From the IMG/VR virus record IMGVR_UViG_3300028590_000092, positions 1 to 22,517 of that record: DNA of 22,517 nucleotides; one strand, written 5' to 3'. This document shows, piece by piece, positions 2,192 to 14,433 of this stretch. Every line of letters begins with the position of its first letter. Positions within the stretch are counted from its first letter, which is position 1. A model generated the notes under the pieces. It worked only from the letters and a program-made list of their open reading frames with translations, was not told where the DNA came from and searched no databases. The position numbers were made by a program, and so were the translations under genes. The stretch is from a virus.

Positions 2192-2524
2192 ATGACCAAG
2201 ACCACCAAGATGCCGGAACGCAAGCGCATCGTTTGCTCCGCGATCCTCGCTATCTCGAATCTGGGAATGCCGCGCCCTTCGGCGCATGACGTAGCTAGAG
2301 TCCTCAAGCGGTTCGATGAACCGAAGCGCTACAGTCACACGCCACGCTCTATAGTCGAGAGCGCCGTAACCAGCCTCGGCCAGCAATACATGGAAAGCGA
2401 TGAACATCAGCGGATGTTTACCGCTGAGGCCATGTCTTTCTACAAAGACAAGACGCTCGCTCACAGTCTGGCGACATGCTGGAAGGACATAGACGCGATT
2501 TACGAAGCCGCGTCCAAAATCTGA
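2192..2524 (+). CDS. hypothetical phage protein, 110 aa
   Basis: The box at 2177-2185 precedes ATG 2192 by 6 nt. The protein is helical, with a segment (RIVCSAILAISNLGMPRPSAHDVARVLKRF) that could be read as a helix-turn-helix-like bundle, but no conserved motif proves this. It directly precedes the AAA+ ATPase gene, 35 nt away. Confidence 0.65.
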   Translation: MTKTTKMPERKRIVCSAILAISNLGMPRPSAHDVARVLKRFDEPKRYSHTPRSIVESAVTSLGQQYMESDEHQRMFTAEAMSFYKDKTLAHSLATCWKDIDAIYEAASKI

Positions 2525-2559
2525 AACCACCGCAAAACCGCATTCAATGGAGAACACCA

Positions 2560-4140
2560 ATGACTGAACAGCTTGAAATGACGAAGAGCCAGCTTGCTGC
2601 CGCTGACGTAGCTGCACTAGCCCGCGCTCGCAATCCGATTATCTGGATCACAAGCAAGGAGGAAGCCCGCGTCGAACGATACCTGATCGAGGCTGGCAAC
2701 TCCGCTGGCTATTCCGCACTGACATGGGACATCGCGCAGGGCGTGGTGGATATGCAGGGCGAACTGCTACGTGGCGTAGGTGGACAGGACCCGGGTGAGA
2801 CGCTGTCCTATATCAGCGCACAGAGCAACGGGCGCACCATGTGGATCATGCGTGACCTGCCGGTTTGGTTTACCGGACCGGCCGGTGCCCCGATCCTGCG
2901 GCAGCTTCGCAACCTCGCACGGTCATTGCCATCGATGCCGCGTGACCGGGCGCAGGTTATCATCATCCTGACGCCATCGTCCGACATTCCACCAGAACTA
3001 AGCAATCACGCCGTCATGATCGACTGGCCGTTGCCCGATCGCGCGGAGATTGCCGACATTCTGGATGCGGCTGTCGAGTCGCTTCCTGACGAACTGCAAA
3101 AGACCGCAGCCCCGAATGGCCAGCGCGCGACGGCCATCGATGCAGCGATTGGTCTTTCGGGTGAGGAAGCCCAAGCCTGCTTCGCCCGCTCGCTCGTTCA
3201 ACTGCGCCGTATCGATCCGGCTATGGTCGCGAATGAGAAGAAGCGGATCATCGCAGCCTCCGGAATTCTGGAGTGGGTCGACCAACTCGCAGGCGGCCTC
3301 GATGGCGTTGGCGGATTGGACGTGGTGAAGGACTGGCTCGGCACCCGCGCCGTTGCCTTTACGCCCAAGGCTCGCGCCTATGGACTACCAGCACCGCGTG
3401 GCCTGCTGTTCGTAGGCCCAGCCGGTACCGGCAAGACGCTGACGGCAAAGGCGACCGCTACCGCATGGCAGTGTCCGCTGCTCCGCTGGAATTTCGGCGC
3501 GATGAAGTCGAAGTTCGTAGGCGACAGCGAACAGAATATCCGCCGCGCTCAGAAGGTCATCGAATCCATCGGCAAGTGCGTCGTCTGGATCGATGAAATT
3601 GAGAAGGACCTACAGGGTGCGACCAGCGGCTCCGCCGATGGCGGTGTCTCTGCCGATGCTCTCGGCTCCTTCCTTTCGTGGATGCAGGAGAGGCAGGGCG
3701 AGGCGTTCGTCATCGCCACGTCCAACGATGTTTCCGCTCTACCGCCTGAGCTGCTCCGGAAGGGCCGCTTCGATGAAGTGTTCTTTATCGATATGCCGAA
3801 CCTTCCTGAGCGGAAGGCGATCCTTGACGCGGCGCTCCGGACGCACAACCGGGGTCGCGTCTCTATCGACCACGACAAATTAGCCGAAGCATCTGATGGC
3901 TTCAGCGGTGCCGAGATTGCGGCGTTGGTACCGGATGCGCTCTATCGCGCCTTCGGTGACGGCGAGCGTGAAATCATCACCGATGATCTGCTCAAGGCGG
4001 CGGCGACTGTCGTGCCAATGTCTAAGAGCAACCAGCAAAAAATCGAAAAGCTCCGTGAGTGGGGCAAGGTCAATGCGCGCGCTGCCTCTACCGGCATAGC
4101 CGCACAGGCCAGCCCAATGAAGCGGACGCTCGATATCTAA
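2560..4140 (+). CDS. Ycf46-like AAA+ ATPase, 526 aa
   Basis: Seen: Walker A GPAGTGKT (286-293), Walker B VVWIDEIEK with D345/E346, a pore-side FVGDSEQNIRRA, sensor-1 FVIATSNDV, arginine-finger region LLRKGRFDEVFFIDMP and lid FSGAEIAALVPDALYRAF. The N-terminal ~250 residues form a degenerate, Walker-less P-loop-like domain (TMWIMRDLPVWF, LRNLARSL, IIILTPSSDIPPEL, WPLPDRAEI). This order, with the GLDVVKDWL linker and a C-terminal VVPMSKSNQQKIEKLREW segment, is what I know from the Ycf46 family of cyanobacteria, plastids and some phages, whose role is poorly defined. Start set by the box at 2545-2553; an in-frame ATG at 2476 lies in the previous gene. The protein ends MKRTLDI, a tail echoed by the next gene. 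Role inferred: ATP-driven remodelling of a phage or host complex. Confidence 0.85.
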   Translation: MTEQLEMTKSQLAAADVAALARARNPIIWITSKEEARVERYLIEAGNSAGYSALTWDIAQGVVDMQGELLRGVGGQDPGETLSYISAQSNGRTMWIMRDLPVWFTGPAGAPILRQLRNLARSLPSMPRDRAQVIIILTPSSDIPPELSNHAVMIDWPLPDRAEIADILDAAVESLPDELQKTAAPNGQRATAIDAAIGLSGEEAQACFARSLVQLRRIDPAMVANEKKRIIAASGILEWVDQLAGGLDGVGGLDVVKDWLGTRAVAFTPKARAYGLPAPRGLLFVGPAGTGKTLTAKATATAWQCPLLRWNFGAMKSKFVGDSEQNIRRAQKVIESIGKCVVWIDEIEKDLQGATSGSADGGVSADALGSFLSWMQERQGEAFVIATSNDVSALPPELLRKGRFDEVFFIDMPNLPERKAILDAALRTHNRGRVSIDHDKLAEASDGFSGAEIAALVPDALYRAFGDGEREIITDDLLKAAATVVPMSKSNQQKIEKLREWGKVNARAASTGIAAQASPMKRTLDI

Positions 4141-6403: not shown

Positions 6404-6913
6404 ATGGGAATCGACATCTACATGGAATGGCCCAAGCAAACCAAGGCCGAGAAGGCAGCGCAGATTACCGGCTTCAGTGCCACGCACGGCCACAAGGGCT
6501 ATCTGCGCGAAGCCTATCACGGCGGCCCCTACGTCACGAAGTTTCTGGTGAGGGAAGCGTTCGAGGCCGAGAGTGCCGAAGCGCAGATACCCGCCAAGGT
6601 GCTACGTGAGCGCCTGCCCGCCGCCGTCATGCTGGCGACGTACCGCAACCACGTTGTCTATGAGGAGCCAGACCCCGGCTTCGCCACTCTCGCAGACGCA
6701 CTGGCTACGGTGTTCGCAGAGACTAAGCGCACCGACAATGAGGGCGAAGAGATCGCTGCCAAGATGGTCGGTGAGCAACTACGGGCGGCAGAAGAACTGA
6801 TCAAGCAGCGCAAGCTGCCTGACTATTGCTTGAGCTACGTCGACTTTGTCGAACTGGCAGAGAAGGTCGAGGCCAAGCTAGGCAAGCCGGTAACCATCAT
6901 CGCCAGCTATTGA
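6404..6913 (+). CDS. conserved phage hypothetical protein, 169 aa
   Basis: The box at 6389-6397 fixes ATG 6404. The N-terminus MGIDIYMEWPKQ begins a small alpha/beta domain with HGHKGYLREAYHGGPY, a His/Gly/Tyr-rich segment typical of an orphan phage family; the remainder (EEIAAKMVGEQLRAAEELIKQ) is helical. No catalytic motif stands out. Function unknown. Confidence 0.7.
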   Translation: MGIDIYMEWPKQTKAEKAAQITGFSATHGHKGYLREAYHGGPYVTKFLVREAFEAESAEAQIPAKVLRERLPAAVMLATYRNHVVYEEPDPGFATLADALATVFAETKRTDNEGEEIAAKMVGEQLRAAEELIKQRKLPDYCLSYVDFVELAEKVEAKLGKPVTIIASY

Positions 6914-7788: not shown

Positions 7789-7823
7789 AGCCCGCCCGGC
7801 GCCAGCCGGGCGGGCTTTCGTTT
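7789..7823 (+). terminator. strong intrinsic terminator ending the left block
   Basis: A perfect 12-bp GC-rich stem, AGCCCGCCCGGC (7789-7800) with GCCGGGCGGGCT (7805-7816), 4-nt loop, then TTCGTTT. It starts 15 nt after the last stop. On the opposite strand no T-run follows, so it should not terminate the converging operon. Confidence 0.85.
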
Positions 7824-7886
7824 GCCCGGTTTCCGGCGCCCTCTAGACCCCCGTCCCATAAGGCCCTAGCTGGAGGCCCCAGAAAC

Positions 7887-8087
7887 GCCCGCTGGTACGG
7901 TTTCCGGGGGTGGGGGCTCCTACCCTAGCCCGGACCCCTAGCCAGCCCCGGAAAAGCCCGCCTGCGCGGGTTCCCGGAGGCCCCTATGGCGGTAGTCGGG
8001 CATAAAGCCCGGCTGGGGCGGTTTCCGGGCGGGGGGTCCTGCCCTAGCCCGCCGCCCCAGCCAGCCCCGGATAGGCCGCCTGCGGGG
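7887..8087. repeat. two GC-rich degenerate repeats, period 120
   Basis: Copy A (7887-7970) and copy B (8007-8087) align over ~84 bp. Shared landmarks in order: GCCCG, CGGTTTCCGGG, a run of G, CCTAGCCCG, CCAGCCCCGGA, then CCTGCG. A shorter, more diverged copy may precede A (CGGTTTCCGG near 7827). The DNA is very GC-rich and has no coding frame I trust on either strand. It lies between convergent transcription units. Confidence 0.65.
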
Positions 8088-8105
8088 CGCTGCAGCCGCC
8101 CGGTT

Positions 8106-8121
8106 TTAGCCCTCCGGGACC
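8106..8121. repeat. direct repeat flanking the array (other copy 8335-8350)
   Basis: TTAGCCCTCCGGGACC here matches TTAGCCCTCCGGTACC at 8335-8350 in 15 of 16 positions. The right copy encodes the last residues and stop of the minus-strand IbrB-like gene, so the array seems to sit between an intact and a duplicated gene end. Confidence 0.6.
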
Positions 8122-8127
8122 ATCACG

Positions 8128-8305
8128 GTTTCGGAGTAAAGGCGTAGGCGTTTCGGAGTACAGGCGTAGCCGTTTCCGTTTCGGAGTACGACCGTAGGCA
8201 TTTCCGTTTCGGAGTAAAAGCGTAGGCATTTCGGAGTAGCACCGTAGGCGTTTCCGTTTCTGAGTACGGCGGTAGTCATCACGGTTTCGGAGTACAGCCG
8301 TAGTC
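8128..8305. repeat. seven-copy 22-nt repeat array
   Basis: Copies at 8128-8149, 8150-8171, 8178-8199, 8206-8227, 8228-8249, 8256-8277 and 8284-8305. Consensus GTTTCGGAGTA, four variable bases, then CGTAGGC. Spacing between copies is 0 or 6 nt; the 6-nt spacers are GTTTCC, ATTTCC or ATCACG. Unit steps of 22 or 28 nt place each copy on about the same face of the helix and rotate the reading frame, so this is not a protein repeat. It looks like an iteron or multi-site protein-binding array, perhaps a replication origin. Confidence 0.8.
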
Positions 8306-8309
8306 ATGC

Positions 8310-8330
8310 CTATGACATTAGGTGTCATAG
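8310..8330. promoter_or_regulatory. 8-bp palindrome beside the array
   Basis: CTATGACA (8310-8317) and TGTCATAG (8323-8330) are perfect inverted repeats around TTAGG. They lie 5 nt beyond the stop of the IbrB-like gene. No T-run follows on either strand, so a protein-binding site or RNA-end hairpin is likelier than an intrinsic terminator. Confidence 0.5.
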
Positions 8331-8334
8331 TGGC

Positions 8335-8838
8335 TTAGCCCTCCGGTACCCACCCGTTTCCAAAGGCGGCGGCGCTGCCGCGCTTGGTCATCCCGCCTTG
8401 ATCAACCAGCCGCTCGACTTCCTCATCTTCCATACCGAGGCGGCTCATAATCTCAGATTCAGAGATTTGCATTTCACCAGCCAACTGCCGAACAATCTCT
8501 GCCATCTTCAGGATGCCGTGCGTGCCGCGCGCTCGATTATGCCGGATCGTGGACATCATCTGATGCGCAGCGTCATTCGGTGCGAGCCAGACCACCGGCA
8601 CGAGCCCGTCCGTCATTGCCTGTATCTCTTTGTCGTTGGTCGCGAGCATGTATCGATGGAAGCCATCGACAATCTCTCCGTCTGGGCGAGCCACGATTGG
8701 CTGCGTCCAGCCATCTTCGATGATGGAAATCTTAAGCAGCCCTAGCTCTGGCGGCGCGACGTGATTCGGGTTGTAGTGATTCGCTCTTAGGCGCGACGGC
8801 GCGACCCACTCTACCTTGCTGACCGGCTGCGGCCTCAT
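8335..8838 (-). CDS. IbrB-like ParB/Srx-fold protein, 167 aa
   Basis: Start ATG 8838 follows CTGGAGGATTATCGCC; the in-frame ATG at 8889 lacks such a site. ParB N-terminal hallmarks: RLRANHYNPN (17-26), a helix with DGWTQPIV (42-49), and IVDGFHRY (56-63), the ParB/sulfiredoxin nucleotide-binding box. TIRHNRARGTH (97-107) and a helix-turn-helix-like end (ISESEIMSRLGMEDEEVERL) match what I recall of IbrB, which acts with IbrA (a PAPS-reductase-like protein) as an activator of eib genes in E. coli prophages. The PAPS-reductase-like gene lies just upstream in this operon, strengthening the call. Its role in a phage is unknown. Confidence 0.8.
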   Translation of the reverse strand: MRPQPVSKVEWVAPSRLRANHYNPNHVAPPELGLLKISIIEDGWTQPIVARPDGEIVDGFHRYMLATNDKEIQAMTDGLVPVVWLAPNDAAHQMMSTIRHNRARGTHGILKMAEIVRQLAGEMQISESEIMSRLGMEDEEVERLVDQGGMTKRGSAAAFGNGWVPEG

Positions 8839-9019
8839 GGCGATAATCCTCCAGTATGGCACTGATGATGCGAAGCTCCAGATCGGCACGGTATCGGCTA
8901 ATCCGGCCGGTCCTGATTTTTGCCGGATACACGATCTTACGACGACGAAGCTCCCGTTGCAGGCACAGGATTTTGTCGATCGTCATGACCGGAAGCATAT
9001 CGAGTTGACCCGGTAGCAT
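8732..9019 (-). CDS. small helical phage protein, about 95 aa
   Basis: Begins 6 nt after the stop of the PAPS-reductase-like gene. The segment ILCLQRELRRRKIVYPAKIRTGRISRYRADLELRIISAILEDY resembles a small phage family with 'REL-x-MR-x-x-YP-x-x-x-x-x-G' followed by 'ADxxIxxMxxIxxDY'. In that family the protein normally ends near DY; here the frame runs 107 nt into the IbrB-like gene, adding an Arg/Ala-rich tail. A one-base frameshift would instead let it stop at the ATGA of the next start. Function unknown. Confidence 0.6.
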   Translation of the reverse strand: MLPGQLDMLPVMTIDKILCLQRELRRRKIVYPAKIRTGRISRYRADLELRIISAILEDYRHEAAAGQQGRVGRAVAPKSESLQPESRRAARARAA

Positions 9020-9025
9020 CGTGAT

Positions 9026-10414
9026 TCACCATATCAATTCCTTAACCGGGACCGCCTTGATATCCGCCTCATACTTTTCGGCAGGCGCACCCATGTTAGG
9101 CTGGCGGCGATCCTTATAGTCACCGCGTATGGCGATATTTAATAGAAACATCCATGAAATGCCAGTGATTGGATGCGGAGCCTTTGGCGCGATCAAATCC
9201 GTGGTCTTGCTGTAATGGTTCTCAATCCACGTTCTGACCCGGTTTGCAATCTCTCCCTTGTATGGCTGCGGATGCTTGTCGATCCAGTACCGGATGTATT
9301 CCGGCCACGTCATGTCGGCTGGCTTCGGCGGCTGCTTGCCGAATGAATAGAGTTGGGTTTGCGAGTAGCGGGCGGCGGTAGCAGCACCGGGGACACGGTT
9401 GCTCATCTTGTCCCAAATGTCAGGGAAGCAACATGCGTATGTCCATAATCCCTGAAGTGGTTCTTCGCCGTAAGGCGGTGCGCAACGCTGATCCTTATGC
9501 GACATTCCAGCCATTTCCATCAGGTCATAGGAGCGATTGTAGTCCCACCCGAATTGATTCGGTGCGGTCCATACATCCTGCGTCCGCCAGTCATAGATTG
9601 GATAGACCTTCCAGAGTTTTTCTCCCGGCTTGTCGGCCCATGGTCTGATATAGGCTCGCGTATCGGCGTGCTTCTTCAGGATAGCGCGCGTCCGCGTCAG
9701 GCTTTCATCTGCGCGAATACCCATGATCATGCCGACCCGGCCATACTTGTGCGATGGAAATAGCAGCGGCACTGAGTCCGGCATCGACGGTCGTTTTTTT
9801 CGTTCGGCTGGGAAGCCTTCGATCTTGTCGAAGGTGATCCCTTCCGGCGGCATAGGACGCACCCACTTCGCTTCATCCTCCGGTGCCCACGGATACCAGT
9901 ATGGGTCCTTCCGCGTACAGGCATTGCGATGCTGGATCGGCAGGCAGAGCCACCATAGATCGAGGTCGGGATTGTCTTGATAGACGCGCCGAACATACTG
10001 CTCGGTCTCGAAAGAGATTGCTTCTTCATCGTAGTGAAAGGCGATGAGCCGCTGACCTCGCGCACGAGCCGCGTCGAGGGCAAGGTGGAGACAGACCGTC
10101 GAGTCCTTCCCGCCAGAGAACGATACCGCGACGGTATCGAACAGCTTGAATGCCTCTTCGACTCGCTCGCGTGCAAGGTCGATGACGGAGCGATCTACGT
10201 TTTGTTTTTTAGCGTGATGCCGAACACCCGAGTATTTGGCCTTCTCGGTTTCAACGAGTTCGTCACCGGAAAACCCTTCGTTCGCATCGCTCTGCTTTAC
10301 ATCCACTTCGGTGAGCCTGATGCCCGGCTCCCCATCGACCACAGTATGTTCTACGATCCCGTCTCTGACCATCTTTGCAACTGCGCTCTTGAGTGTGCCT
10401 TCCCACTGCTTCAC
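9026..10414 (-). CDS. PAPS-reductase-like (IbrA-type) enzyme, 462 aa
   Basis: GTG start at 10414, overlapping the cupin stop, with AAGGA 8-9 nt upstream. SGGKDST (100-106) is the ATP-pyrophosphatase PP-loop, followed by the fold's HLALD and AFHYDEE. Downstream motifs (MGIRADESLTRTR; VYPIYDWRTQDVW; CAPPYGEEPLQGLW; CCFPDIWDKMSNRVPGA) fit the phage/IbrA branch (DUF3440-like, as I recall) rather than biosynthetic CysH. The N-terminal ~40 residues (LKSAVAKMVRDGIVEHTVVDGEPGIRL) look like a winged-helix or wing fragment. The family activates a substrate with ATP and often handles sulfur; DndC of DNA phosphorothioation is a relative. The substrate here is unknown. Confidence 0.85.
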   Translation of the reverse strand: MKQWEGTLKSAVAKMVRDGIVEHTVVDGEPGIRLTEVDVKQSDANEGFSGDELVETEKAKYSGVRHHAKKQNVDRSVIDLARERVEEAFKLFDTVAVSFSGGKDSTVCLHLALDAARARGQRLIAFHYDEEAISFETEQYVRRVYQDNPDLDLWWLCLPIQHRNACTRKDPYWYPWAPEDEAKWVRPMPPEGITFDKIEGFPAERKKRPSMPDSVPLLFPSHKYGRVGMIMGIRADESLTRTRAILKKHADTRAYIRPWADKPGEKLWKVYPIYDWRTQDVWTAPNQFGWDYNRSYDLMEMAGMSHKDQRCAPPYGEEPLQGLWTYACCFPDIWDKMSNRVPGAATAARYSQTQLYSFGKQPPKPADMTWPEYIRYWIDKHPQPYKGEIANRVRTWIENHYSKTTDLIAPKAPHPITGISWMFLLNIAIRGDYKDRRQPNMGAPAEKYEADIKAVPVKELIW

Positions 10415-11172
10415 TGCCGAATTTCCTTGGTCCTGATTTCATCCATCGACTTCGCGCTGATGCCATCGACGATGGTACGGTTAAGCATCGGATGATTCTC
10501 ATGCGTGGGACCGAAATCAGTATCCGGATGAAACACCGTCAAGTCCATCGATGAGCCTTCAGTCACGAAGGCATGGATTGCATCCGGCGCAAGGATGAAC
10601 ATCCGACCCGGAAGCAAATCTTCTTCGCCATCCTCCGTGATGCACCGCCCCTTCCCTCCGTGGATCAGCCCGCATCGAACGGTAGGATGGGTGTGCTTGG
10701 TCTGCGTGATACCAGCCGGGAAGTGCAGCAGGTTAAAGCACGGATCACCGAGTAGCGGCGGCGGTATCAGCAGCGTATCGCTACAGCCATCGATGTATTT
10801 AAGCCGCCCGATCTGCTCGACCGGTCCACCCAGATGCCGCAGCCCCATGAAGTCCAGCCGATAGGCAAAGAATGCGCGCGCATCTTTGGACGCCAAGACC
10901 TTGATGCCGTTTTTGCCGGGAGCCGAGAAGTATTCGTTCGATGTTACCGGCGTCATGAACGAGCCGCCATGTCCAGAACCAAGAACATGGATGTTGCCAC
11001 TCTGGACGAAGCCGTATGCAGTCCCGCCGTGCGGCAAGATCAACCCATCAACACCGTTGCCTTTACCGTTGCCGTTGCCGCCGATGACGCCATAGACCTG
11101 ACACGGATATTTTTCGTTGCTGAAATCCGCCATCAGTCCATGCTTGAGGTCCAAGATAGTAGCGGCTTTCAT
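10411..11172 (-). CDS. cupin-domain protein, 253 aa
   Basis: ATG 11172 overlaps the upstream stop in an ATGA. The C-terminal half is a clear cupin: FNLLHFPAGITQTKHTHPTVRCGLIHGGKG carries the G-x5-H-x-H type metal motif, and LLPGRMFILAPDAIHAF supplies motif 2 with its histidine. A following FHPDTDFGPTHENHPMLNR is conserved-looking. The N-terminal half may be a second, degenerate cupin and includes a Gly/Asn repeat (GGNGNGKGNG) encoded by a GGCAAC-type run. Cupins include oxygenases, isomerases and small-molecule sensors; the reaction is not evident. Position between a ParB-fold gene and a PAPS-reductase-like gene suggests a shared pathway. Confidence 0.8.
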   Translation of the reverse strand: MKAATILDLKHGLMADFSNEKYPCQVYGVIGGNGNGKGNGVDGLILPHGGTAYGFVQSGNIHVLGSGHGGSFMTPVTSNEYFSAPGKNGIKVLASKDARAFFAYRLDFMGLRHLGGPVEQIGRLKYIDGCSDTLLIPPPLLGDPCFNLLHFPAGITQTKHTHPTVRCGLIHGGKGRCITEDGEEDLLPGRMFILAPDAIHAFVTEGSSMDLTVFHPDTDFGPTHENHPMLNRTIVDGISAKSMDEIRTKEIRQ

Positions 11173-11825
11173 TGTTTAACTCCGTCCTTCGCAACCGCTA
11201 TCAGCGCCTCGGCTGTAGTCCTGAGTTTGCGCACATCTCGCTCATGCGCCAGCCACGCGATAACCATATCGCGGTCGTTTGGCATCATATCGAATTTTAG
11301 TGAAACGCCACGCGCACCCGGTACGACCGCGCTCGATTCAGCAGTCGTCGTATCCCCAATAACGTCAGAGAGAAAGCCACCCGGATTCAGTATGCGAAGC
11401 TCTTTGCCATCGAAGCCTAGAAACTCGATATCGAACCCATTCATCTTCAGTTCGTCAATCTCAAGTCGCAAGATCGTTTCATCCCATTCCGATAGCAAGG
11501 CAACCTTGTTATCCGCGATGCGGATGGCGCGCTTGGTCGTGTCATCCAGACCGTGATGAATGACGACCGGGAATTCCGTGAAGCCAGCTTTGATGGCGGC
11601 TAACAGCCTACCGTGCCCCTTAAGGATCACGCCACCTTCATCGACTACGATGGGCTGATCGACCCCATGCTTGCTCATGAGGCGCGCGAGCAGTTCTATC
11701 TGCGCTGCCGGATGTTCACGAGCGTTTCGCTCATAGGGCTTGATGCGGTCTAGGGCCCAAGTCTCCACAACTTGAGCAGGCCAAGGTGTCTTGGCTGCTA
11801 CTGCCGCTTTTGCTTTTGGTGGCAA
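11169..11825 (-). CDS. ParB N-terminal-domain protein, 218 aa
   Basis: TTG start at 11825 with AAGGA 9 nt upstream; no closer in-frame ATG gives the whole domain. Motifs: RNAREH (33-38), LMSKHGVDQPIVV (49-61), VILKGHGRLLAA (66-77) and IRIADNKVALLSEWD (101-115). This is the ParB/Srx domain form that phages often fuse to DNA methyltransferases; here it stands alone, with a C-terminal ~80-residue tail and no methyltransferase motif. It differs in sequence from the IbrB-like protein of the same operon, so two distinct ParB folds are present. Confidence 0.8.
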   Translation of the reverse strand: MPPKAKAAVAAKTPWPAQVVETWALDRIKPYERNAREHPAAQIELLARLMSKHGVDQPIVVDEGGVILKGHGRLLAAIKAGFTEFPVVIHHGLDDTTKRAIRIADNKVALLSEWDETILRLEIDELKMNGFDIEFLGFDGKELRILNPGGFLSDVIGDTTTAESSAVVPGARGVSLKFDMMPNDRDMVIAWLAHERDVRKLRTTAEALIAVAKDGVKQ

Positions 11826-11984: not shown

Positions 11985-12733
11985 GGCAAACGTGTTGGCC
12001 GGGTTTTCAGCATATCCCGTAGCTCCGCAGAAACTACTAGATCGCCCGCCTTCAGAGGTTCTTCGCCGCGCTGCGCATAGTCGTCTACAATCTGTTGGGT
12101 GTTTCTATCGACCATGTATTGCTTCGTGCGCTCGATCCGCTGCTCGCGTTCTTCAGCATAGGGATCGAATACCTTCGCAGAAGTTGCCCGCCATTCTTCT
12201 ATGGCGCGATTGATACGCTCACGCTCCGATTCACTGACAACCGGCTGCTCAAGTTGCTTCGCATTCAAGATGCGCGAATAGCGAACTAGCTCAGCATTGA
12301 GTTTGTTCGCCCTCGCCTCGGCATCGGCATAGAGAATATTGGCAGGTGGCGGTAGGTCGGTGGCGAAGTGCTTGACCTTGTTTTTAGTGACCGCTTCACA
12401 GGTTTCTAGGATCGCGAATAGCGGCAGGTCCTTCAAGTGCAGAGCATAGGCAGCGATAGTATCCTTCGCATTGACGTTCCGCATCGTAGGGTAACCAGCG
12501 AACATGACAGCAAGTGCTTGCGCGGCACGCCTTTGATCTTCGCTAGCGTAGGTTATTGGTCTTAGTGCTCGCCTTAGATCACTCTCCCGCTGCTTTAGAA
12601 GCTGATACTCTGTCGGTGTAGGAAAACGGTTGATCAGAACGCGACCGCCTTCTTCAGTGATGCTAAAATTATCGGCCACCTTCAGCGCGGTAACATCGGG
12701 CAGGGATGTTGAATGCTTGATGATCTCATTCAT
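11981..12733 (-). CDS. conserved phage protein, replication-companion candidate, 250 aa
   Basis: ATG 12733 overlaps the stop of the replication-type gene (ATGA). The middle (VMFAGYPTMRNVNAKDTIAAYALHLKDLPLFAILETCEAV) is a pattern I associate with phage proteins encoded next to replication initiators; the rest is helical and highly charged (SERERINRAIEEWR, EEREQRIERTKQY). A helicase-loader or accessory role is suggested by position only. No Walker or other catalytic motif is seen. Confidence 0.7.
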   Translation of the reverse strand: MNEIIKHSTSLPDVTALKVADNFSITEEGGRVLINRFPTPTEYQLLKQRESDLRRALRPITYASEDQRRAAQALAVMFAGYPTMRNVNAKDTIAAYALHLKDLPLFAILETCEAVTKNKVKHFATDLPPPANILYADAEARANKLNAELVRYSRILNAKQLEQPVVSESERERINRAIEEWRATSAKVFDPYAEEREQRIERTKQYMVDRNTQQIVDDYAQRGEEPLKAGDLVVSAELRDMLKTRPTRLP

Positions 12734-13482
12734 GAGTCTAGCCTCCCCTTGGCTATGTCAGCAAAGCTAGGCTGCCCGTTTCGCTCATTGCGCTCATGCT
12801 CAAACTGCGCCTCTTTATCGATCCACATACGCCATGTTGCTGCTAGCCCACGCTCGCCTGCTATCTGTGTGCCTTTCGAGATATGATAATCACGACATTT
12901 TCGTATTAGTTTAGCGATCGTATTATCGGAATATCCGCGCTGCTTCGCGTAGGCTATTCCGAACGCATCTGGCTTCCAACCATCCGGCATTCGGCAACGC
13001 GGAGCGAACCGTTCTTTTCCCTTACTACTACCTTCTTCTTTTCCCTTATTCAGACCTATATCTATATCTTCTATATCCTGTGCCTGTAGAGTAGCCCCCC
13101 CTGTTATGTTTTTTGTGAAAGAAAACAATGGGTTACTTTGGGTGCCAAGTCGCCCGTTATTGCGGCTTTTCTGTGCCCGTAGCATCCGGCGACAATAGAT
13201 AATTCCACGCTTATCCCGACTAAAAACTCCCTTATCTTCGAGTTCCTTTAGTAGGTTTGTTACGTCATCAACAGTGTTTATCCCATTGCAAAAGAGCGCC
13301 GCTGTAATCGGCTGACCGCCGACTAACCCGAAACCATAATCCTCGCCATCATTAGAACCGGCGATGCATAATATTTCCATCCACAATCCGCGCGCCGCTA
13401 AAGAACAAGCCCTTAGACAATGATCACTTACCCAATCACTCCAGAAAAACGAAGTCGCTCTCTGTGCGCGTGCTATCCGCAT
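12730..13482 (-). CDS. phage replication-type winged-helix protein, 250 aa
   Basis: The start at 13482 is fixed by CAATGGAGC (13497-13489) on this strand; an in-frame codon at 13566 would add 28 residues across the promoter region. The N-terminal ~110 residues (FFWSDWVSDHCLRACSLAARGLWMEILCIA; then VTNLLKELEDKGVFSRDKRGIIYCRRM) follow the DUF1376/DnaD-like replisome-organiser winged-helix pattern. The middle is Lys/Gly/Ser-rich linker; the C-terminal part (PDGWKPDAFGIAYAKQRGYSDNTIAKLIRKCRDYHISKG) resembles a DnaT/primosomal-type module. Likely binds the phage origin or recruits helicase. It is the first gene of the minus operon. Confidence 0.75.
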   Translation of the reverse strand: MRIARAQRATSFFWSDWVSDHCLRACSLAARGLWMEILCIAGSNDGEDYGFGLVGGQPITAALFCNGINTVDDVTNLLKELEDKGVFSRDKRGIIYCRRMLRAQKSRNNGRLGTQSNPLFSFTKNITGGATLQAQDIEDIDIGLNKGKEEGSSKGKERFAPRCRMPDGWKPDAFGIAYAKQRGYSDNTIAKLIRKCRDYHISKGTQIAGERGLAATWRMWIDKEAQFEHERNERNGQPSFADIAKGRLDS

Positions 13483-13513
13483 CTTAGTGCTCCATTGTTT
13501 TGAAAACGCATCT

Positions 13514-13542
13514 ATGATTACTCCCGCAACCCCAGCCGTCAA
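13514..13542 (-). promoter_or_regulatory. promoter candidate for the minus-strand operon
   Basis: Read on the minus strand: TTGACG (13542-13537, five of six), 17-nt spacer, AATCAT (13519-13514, four of six). A transcript would start near 13507, about 25 nt before the replication gene and carrying its ribosome box. Confidence 0.4.
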
Positions 13543-13570
13543 AGCGAGATTTTGACTGGATAACATTTTT

Positions 13571-13598
13571 AATTTACTACGAATTACACCAGTAAATT
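13571..13598. promoter_or_regulatory. inverted repeat between divergent promoters
   Basis: AATTTACT (13571-13578) and AGTAAATT (13591-13598) are perfect inverted repeats with a 12-nt spacer, in the most AT-rich stretch of the window. Their position between the two promoter-like boxes suggests an operator serving both directions. No repressor gene is visible in the window. Confidence 0.5.
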
Positions 13599-13604
13599 TT
13601 TACG

Positions 13605-13671: not shown

Positions 13672-14433
13672 ATGGCAACGCGGCAACGCGCCGTCGCTAC
13701 GCGCAAAGCAACGCCCGTAGCTCGCCCACCGAATAACATACTAGGCATTATCGCGGACGCCGCCGCCGATGAAAGCGTGCAGCCAGAAAAGATGCGCGCG
13801 CTGCTGGATATGCAGAAAGAGATAATGGCGGAGGAAGCCCGCATCGCGTTTACAAAAGACTTCATAGCGATGATGGAGGAGTTGCCGACGATCAATGCTA
13901 CCGGGCGTATTGAAATAAGGGAAAAGGTTGCGGGACAGCGAACAGGCCCGGTTCAGCAATCGACGGCCTATGCGACATATAATGAAATCTGGAGAACGAT
14001 AAAGCCCATCCTGCTGAAACATCATTTCGGTTTGACGCACAGTAATATCGAATCGAGTGACGGTCGGGTCGTCGTTAAGACGACGCTCATTCACGAGCGC
14101 GGCCATCAGCGTGAAAGCATCATTCCGTTGCCGCTAGAGACGAGCGGTAGCAAGAACAACGTACAGGCTTATGGGTCATCGACTAGCTACGCCAAGCGAT
14201 ACAATACGGCACAGCTTCTCAACTTGATCAGTGAGTTTAAGGATGATCGCGATACGGATGGCGTAACGACGATTGATCAAAGCCAACTCGAAGAGCTAAT
14301 CGTGCTGGCTGACGAATTCGGCGTAGACAAGCGCCGCTTCTGTGAGCATTTCAAAATTCCAGCAATGATCGATTTGCCCGTTGCCCGTTTGGATGAAGCC
14401 AAGGGCATGATCCGCAAGAAGGGTAAGAAGTGA
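13672..14433 (+). CDS. erf: Erf-family single-strand annealing protein, 253 aa
   Basis: Box at 13657-13665, ATG 13672. The N-terminal ~40 residues are a basic, disordered lead. The core shows the ERF pattern: STAYATYNEIWRTIKPILLKHHFGLTHS (97-124), then a beta region, then VQAYGSSTSYAKRYNTAQLLNLISEFKDDRDTDG (164-197) with its SYAKRY signature. The C-terminal 60 residues are helical and end in a basic KKGKK. Erf proteins anneal complementary single strands in phage recombination. The YqaJ-type exonuclease gene follows after one small gene, giving an exonuclease/annealase pair. First gene of the right operon. Confidence 0.85.
   Translation: MATRQRAVATRKATPVARPPNNILGIIADAAADESVQPEKMRALLDMQKEIMAEEARIAFTKDFIAMMEELPTINATGRIEIREKVAGQRTGPVQQSTAYATYNEIWRTIKPILLKHHFGLTHSNIESSDGRVVVKTTLIHERGHQRESIIPLPLETSGSKNNVQAYGSSTSYAKRYNTAQLLNLISEFKDDRDTDGVTTIDQSQLEELIVLADEFGVDKRRFCEHFKIPAMIDLPVARLDEAKGMIRKKGKK

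Follow-up and report, generated by a model that had tools for sequence, protein, structure and literature searches.

In a metagenomic phage fragment, a virus record of 22,517 bases (the window), the convergent 3′ gap between two gene blocks contains a tandem array of seven direct units at about 8121..8307 on the + strand. Judging from the sequence, our tentative reading, held at somewhat less than even confidence, is that the array represents a cluster of putative protein-binding sites, specific to this lineage, that grew by duplication and perhaps serves as a nucleoprotein transcription block. The repeated element is a 19-nt motif, TTTCGGAGTA-N4-CGTAG, whose seven copies all lie on the + strand in direct orientation, with unit starts at 8129, 8151, 8179, 8207, 8229, 8257 and 8285 and cores spanning 8129-8303. 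The four internal bases (N4) read AAGG in unit 1 (8129..8147), CAGG in unit 2 (8151..8169), CGAC in unit 3 (8179..8197), AAAG in unit 4 (8207..8225), GCAC in unit 5 (8229..8247), CGGC in unit 6 (8257..8275) and CAGC in unit 7 (8285..8303); unit 6 is degenerate, with TTTCTGAGTA on one side of its N4 and GGTAG on the other. The seven repeat units reported in the initial annotation are thus confirmed, at steps of 22, 28, 28, 22, 28 and 28 nt, the linkers between them measuring 3 or 9 nt. Tandem Repeats Finder detects a higher-order repeat with a period of 78 nt (2.4 copies, score 260), and because this best tandem period equals 22+28+28, the array appears to have grown at two levels. The core is not self-complementary, and the units are accordingly non-palindromic.

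The array is far from chance expectation. When up to two flank mismatches are allowed, the motif matches seven times in the window, while 20 dinucleotide shuffles gave no match in 19 cases and one match in the other. The array also recurs without change in another contig of this virus, which departs from the window at 1 base in 15,188, making an assembly artefact unlikely, although the two samples are perhaps not independent.

The gap extends over 560 nt between the end of the + block (7774) and the convergent end of the − block (8335). An intrinsic terminator-like hairpin (7789..7816, +) closes the + gene block, and the remainder of the gap is occupied by a GC-rich sequence of about 85 nt that is present twice, the copies being 80% identical to each other (7884-7969 and 8004-8087). 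Next to the array, the 3′ end of the ibrB-like gene is found once more at 8106..8130 (+), matching the original at 8335-8359 at 80% over 25 nt, with 12 nt exact (TTAGCCCTCCGG). A palindrome, TATGACA-TTAGG-TGTCATA (8311..8329), the sole copy in the window, separates the array from the end of the ibrB-like gene, and the copied and original 3′ ends bracket both array and palindrome. The array looks as if it had arisen by, or been inserted along with, a local duplication of the ibrB-like 3′ end. It is non-coding, because neither 22 nor 28 is divisible by 3 and because the minus ORF that spans it (8044-8328) has a codon score of −0.04, compared with 0.05-0.29 for the 19 genes scored; this ORF, tried as a coding reading and rejected, matches no NCBIfam model. 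A tRNA search returned nothing.

Two further observations concern other genes of the window. Many + genes are preceded by a long ribosome-site box, roughly TCAATGGAGAACNACAATGA (for example at 686, 1227, 2178, 2546, 4163, 5384, 6390, 6966 and 13658), and AATGGAGA occurs 16 times on the + strand, 14 of these with an ATG within ~11 nt, and 0 times on the − strand. The box is similar in kind to sequences associated with gene starts in cluster K mycobacteriophages (PMC3203893), and five weaker copies are present in the first 20 kb read of the syntenic relative described below. The product of 2476-4140 is an AAA+ ATPase (phrog_8638), ~45% identical to AAA-ATPases of Mycobacterium phages and distantly similar to IetA of a defence system.

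The array was found in one virus only, represented by two contigs. Searches for further relatives used three neighbour proteins, two of which were also run as alignments; among viral contigs they recovered nothing beyond this same virus and a single relative, represented by two contigs (L013/L014; at length L048) and the sole syntenic one found, and among genomes only distant cupin homologues. This relative matches the right end of the + block, runs across the gap and continues through the − block, with 58-80% identity overall for three aligned neighbour proteins. It keeps the convergent gap and its own + terminator, with another hairpin at the opposite side of the gap, and the search for the unit in relatives that the initial annotation had proposed came back negative, as the array is absent from this gap and from the 40 kb of the relative examined. 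An ordinary repeat interspersed in hosts was considered and rejected, the two-unit pattern being absent from a genome collection of 84,980 species, and blastn of the array found nothing in plasmids or in phages. Four other viral contigs contain a single core once each, which we take as chance. With a relaxed two-unit pattern, a two-unit match was obtained inside a coding sequence of one contig (L063) and a further match in an unrelated phage contig (L062), where an eight-unit array of 25/26-nt units (CTGAGTAAAAGCGTAGGGTATATAC) occupies a long non-coding region near an endolysin gene (6707-6907) and shares GAGTAAAAGCGTAGG with unit 4. The reversed-motif control gave three two-unit matches, the shared 15-mer has a blastn E of 0.56 and the two phages have no protein in common; homology with the L062 array is therefore not claimed.

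The pattern of mutation among the units is what points to a motif that is read. The initial annotation noted that the four internal bases vary while the flanks are kept, and this holds: differences from the consensus fall in 12/28 N4 cells and 2/105 flank cells, a count that is circular in that these seven units also served to define the flanks. A non-circular comparison, in which column classes were taken from units 1-3 and differences were counted between the 78-nt partners 1/4, 2/5, 3/6 and 4/7, gives 13/24 differing cells in variable columns and 2/64 elsewhere (p=1.6e-7). None of the N4 words in units 4-7 is present among units 1-3, so they look like new mutations rather than copies. The linkers mutate as well as N4, and the flanks stay fixed. 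With the flanks constrained and N4 and the linkers free, the motif looks selected, as far as seven units in one genome can tell, and would most simply be a bipartite protein-binding site. This lends indirect support to the earlier suggestion that a two-part DNA-binding protein reads the sites, and the iteron or origin function proposed along with it is not supported.

Two rivals to a binding-site cluster take the array as inert DNA or as RNA. Replication slippage could have left a functionless minisatellite, since nested duplications of 22, 28 and 78 nt are its typical product and, as in intergenic minisatellite-like tandem repeats, the array belongs to one lineage, being absent from the syntenic relative and, as a two-unit pattern, from the genome collection. 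Neutral decay, however, should strike all columns and spread mutations evenly, whereas differences between the 78-nt partners avoid the two conserved blocks, and we regard this explanation as unlikely, if well short of negligible. The array also lies just downstream of the minus block, where it might form an RNA element, structured or made of protein-binding repeats, in the 3′ region of the minus transcript. Predicted folding is somewhat stronger than in shuffled sequences on both strands (z of −2.6 and −2.3), but the seven units pair differently and the predicted folds lack a uniform unit structure on either strand, which supports the binding-site reading; the array has no match in Rfam, an RNA family is rejected, and an RNA element seems quite improbable.

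The genes beside the array raise the question of partition. The 3′ end of an IbrB-like ParB/sulfiredoxin-fold gene (8335..8889, −, phrog_2159) abuts the array region, and phage matches of its product are annotated as ParB-like, ParB/sulfiredoxin or IbrB. Its predicted structure, a modest model (pLDDT 68), resembles ParB, Noc and KorB over ~145 residues with the helix-turn-helix included, so DNA binding by the IbrB-like protein is possible. The family keeps D-G-x-H-R and the gene shares its block with a PAPS-reductase-like gene, features that suggest an enzyme. For the second ParB-fold protein, from the same block (11169-11825), matches came from ParB-like phage families and from a methyltransferase family model, of which it covers the N-terminal part. 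The block at 8335-11825, comprising IbrB-like, PAPS-reductase-like (with distant DndC similarity), cupin-like and ParB-like/methyltransferase-N-terminal genes, is kept in the relative and might serve to modify nucleotides or DNA. Both ParB-fold proteins are candidate ligands of the array, and neither has the appearance of a partition protein.

The array could still serve the adjacent IbrB-like protein as a site for partition or silencing, and it resembles parS and KorB sites in being a cluster of sites beside a ParB-fold gene; the modest model of the gene product matches ParB, Noc and KorB. ParB and KorB sites are palindromes, however, and the array core is not; ParA was not recognised among the proteins scanned from this fragment record, which included part of the small ORFs; the neighbouring protein belongs to an enzyme-like family with a PAPS-reductase-like partner; and 27 other ibrB-like loci lack a comparable array within 1.5 kb downstream (a few of these contigs end sooner). 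We consider such a site very unlikely. An origin, with the seven units as iterons bound by the replication-type protein of the minus block, which would open nearby DNA, is improbable as well. The array does resemble the iterons of P1, F, RK2 and R6K and the phage lambda ori in having several fixed-core repeats of ~19-22 nt, mostly direct in plasmids, and its ~22-nt direct repeats with a fixed bipartite core are within the ~17-22 nt expected of iterons. The replication-type gene, moreover, lies in the same minus block as the genes adjacent to the array. As a rule, the iterons of plasmids follow the helical phase, and an A+T-rich unwinding element is a common component of origins (PMC5043065). 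The helical phasing claimed in the initial annotation is wrong, however, with only two of the six steps at 22 nt and four at 28 nt (2.67 turns), giving a coherence of 0.14 at 10.5 bp/turn, and the gap lacks an unwinding stretch, its best 40-mer having 55% A+T against 80% for the best in the window (13563-13602), which falls at the start of the replication-type gene. Unlike an iteron array with an adjoining initiator gene, the array sits at a convergent junction ~4.4 kb from the nearest replication-initiation/primosomal-type gene (12730..13566, −, phrog_1408 and phrog_3992), whose product yielded a structural model too poor to use (pLDDT 41).

The cumulative GC-skew minimum, the check proposed for an origin at the array, likewise falls elsewhere, at 13767, although gene orientation also shapes GC skew and the window is a fragment. 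The replication gene contains two 22-nt repeats (13012-13057). Taken together, the skew, the A+T peak and the repeats inside this gene place the likely origin at 13.0-13.8 kb, and the array is likely not a replication origin. The absence of the array from the relative is weaker evidence on this point than it appears, because the replication protein of the relative is very different (24% identity). The replication gene of the relative carries two 19-nt repeats and inverted repeats, and the strong GC-rich direct and inverted repeats inside it, at 7458-7529 of L048, are a candidate lambda-like origin.

The binding-site cluster that we prefer can be pictured as seven same-direction, non-palindromic bipartite sites, each of 10 fixed, 4 free and 5 fixed bases. 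Tandem duplication of the 22/28-nt units, followed by duplication of a 78-nt block, would have built the array, and point mutations arising after duplication would have been tolerated in N4 and the linkers and not in the two recognition parts. We infer a ligand protein, its binding and a purpose for the array: a DNA-binding protein of the virus or its host would load onto the array and make a nucleoprotein block, which would most likely end or insulate the minus-strand transcript at a place where the relative has ordinary hairpins. The insulator role is inferred from position, and the + terminator of the window lies at the convergent junction, with that of the relative at the same place. A more far-reaching proposal, and a long shot, is that a DNA-binding protein of the phage, as yet undescribed and perhaps the IbrB-like protein itself, uses the array as a platform and forms a nucleoprotein barrier between convergent operons or a mark on phage DNA, with the IbrA/IbrB-like pair acting on the array. 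With the array present in one virus only, this phage type as a whole must be able to do without it. It is easy to take a short direct-repeat array in a phage gap for an origin; in this case helical phase, unwinding element, skew, neighbouring initiator and conservation all speak against one, while the mutation pattern indicates that the motif is read. The array is a compact and testable candidate set of binding sites, and the search for the origin of this phage shifts to 13.0-13.8 kb.
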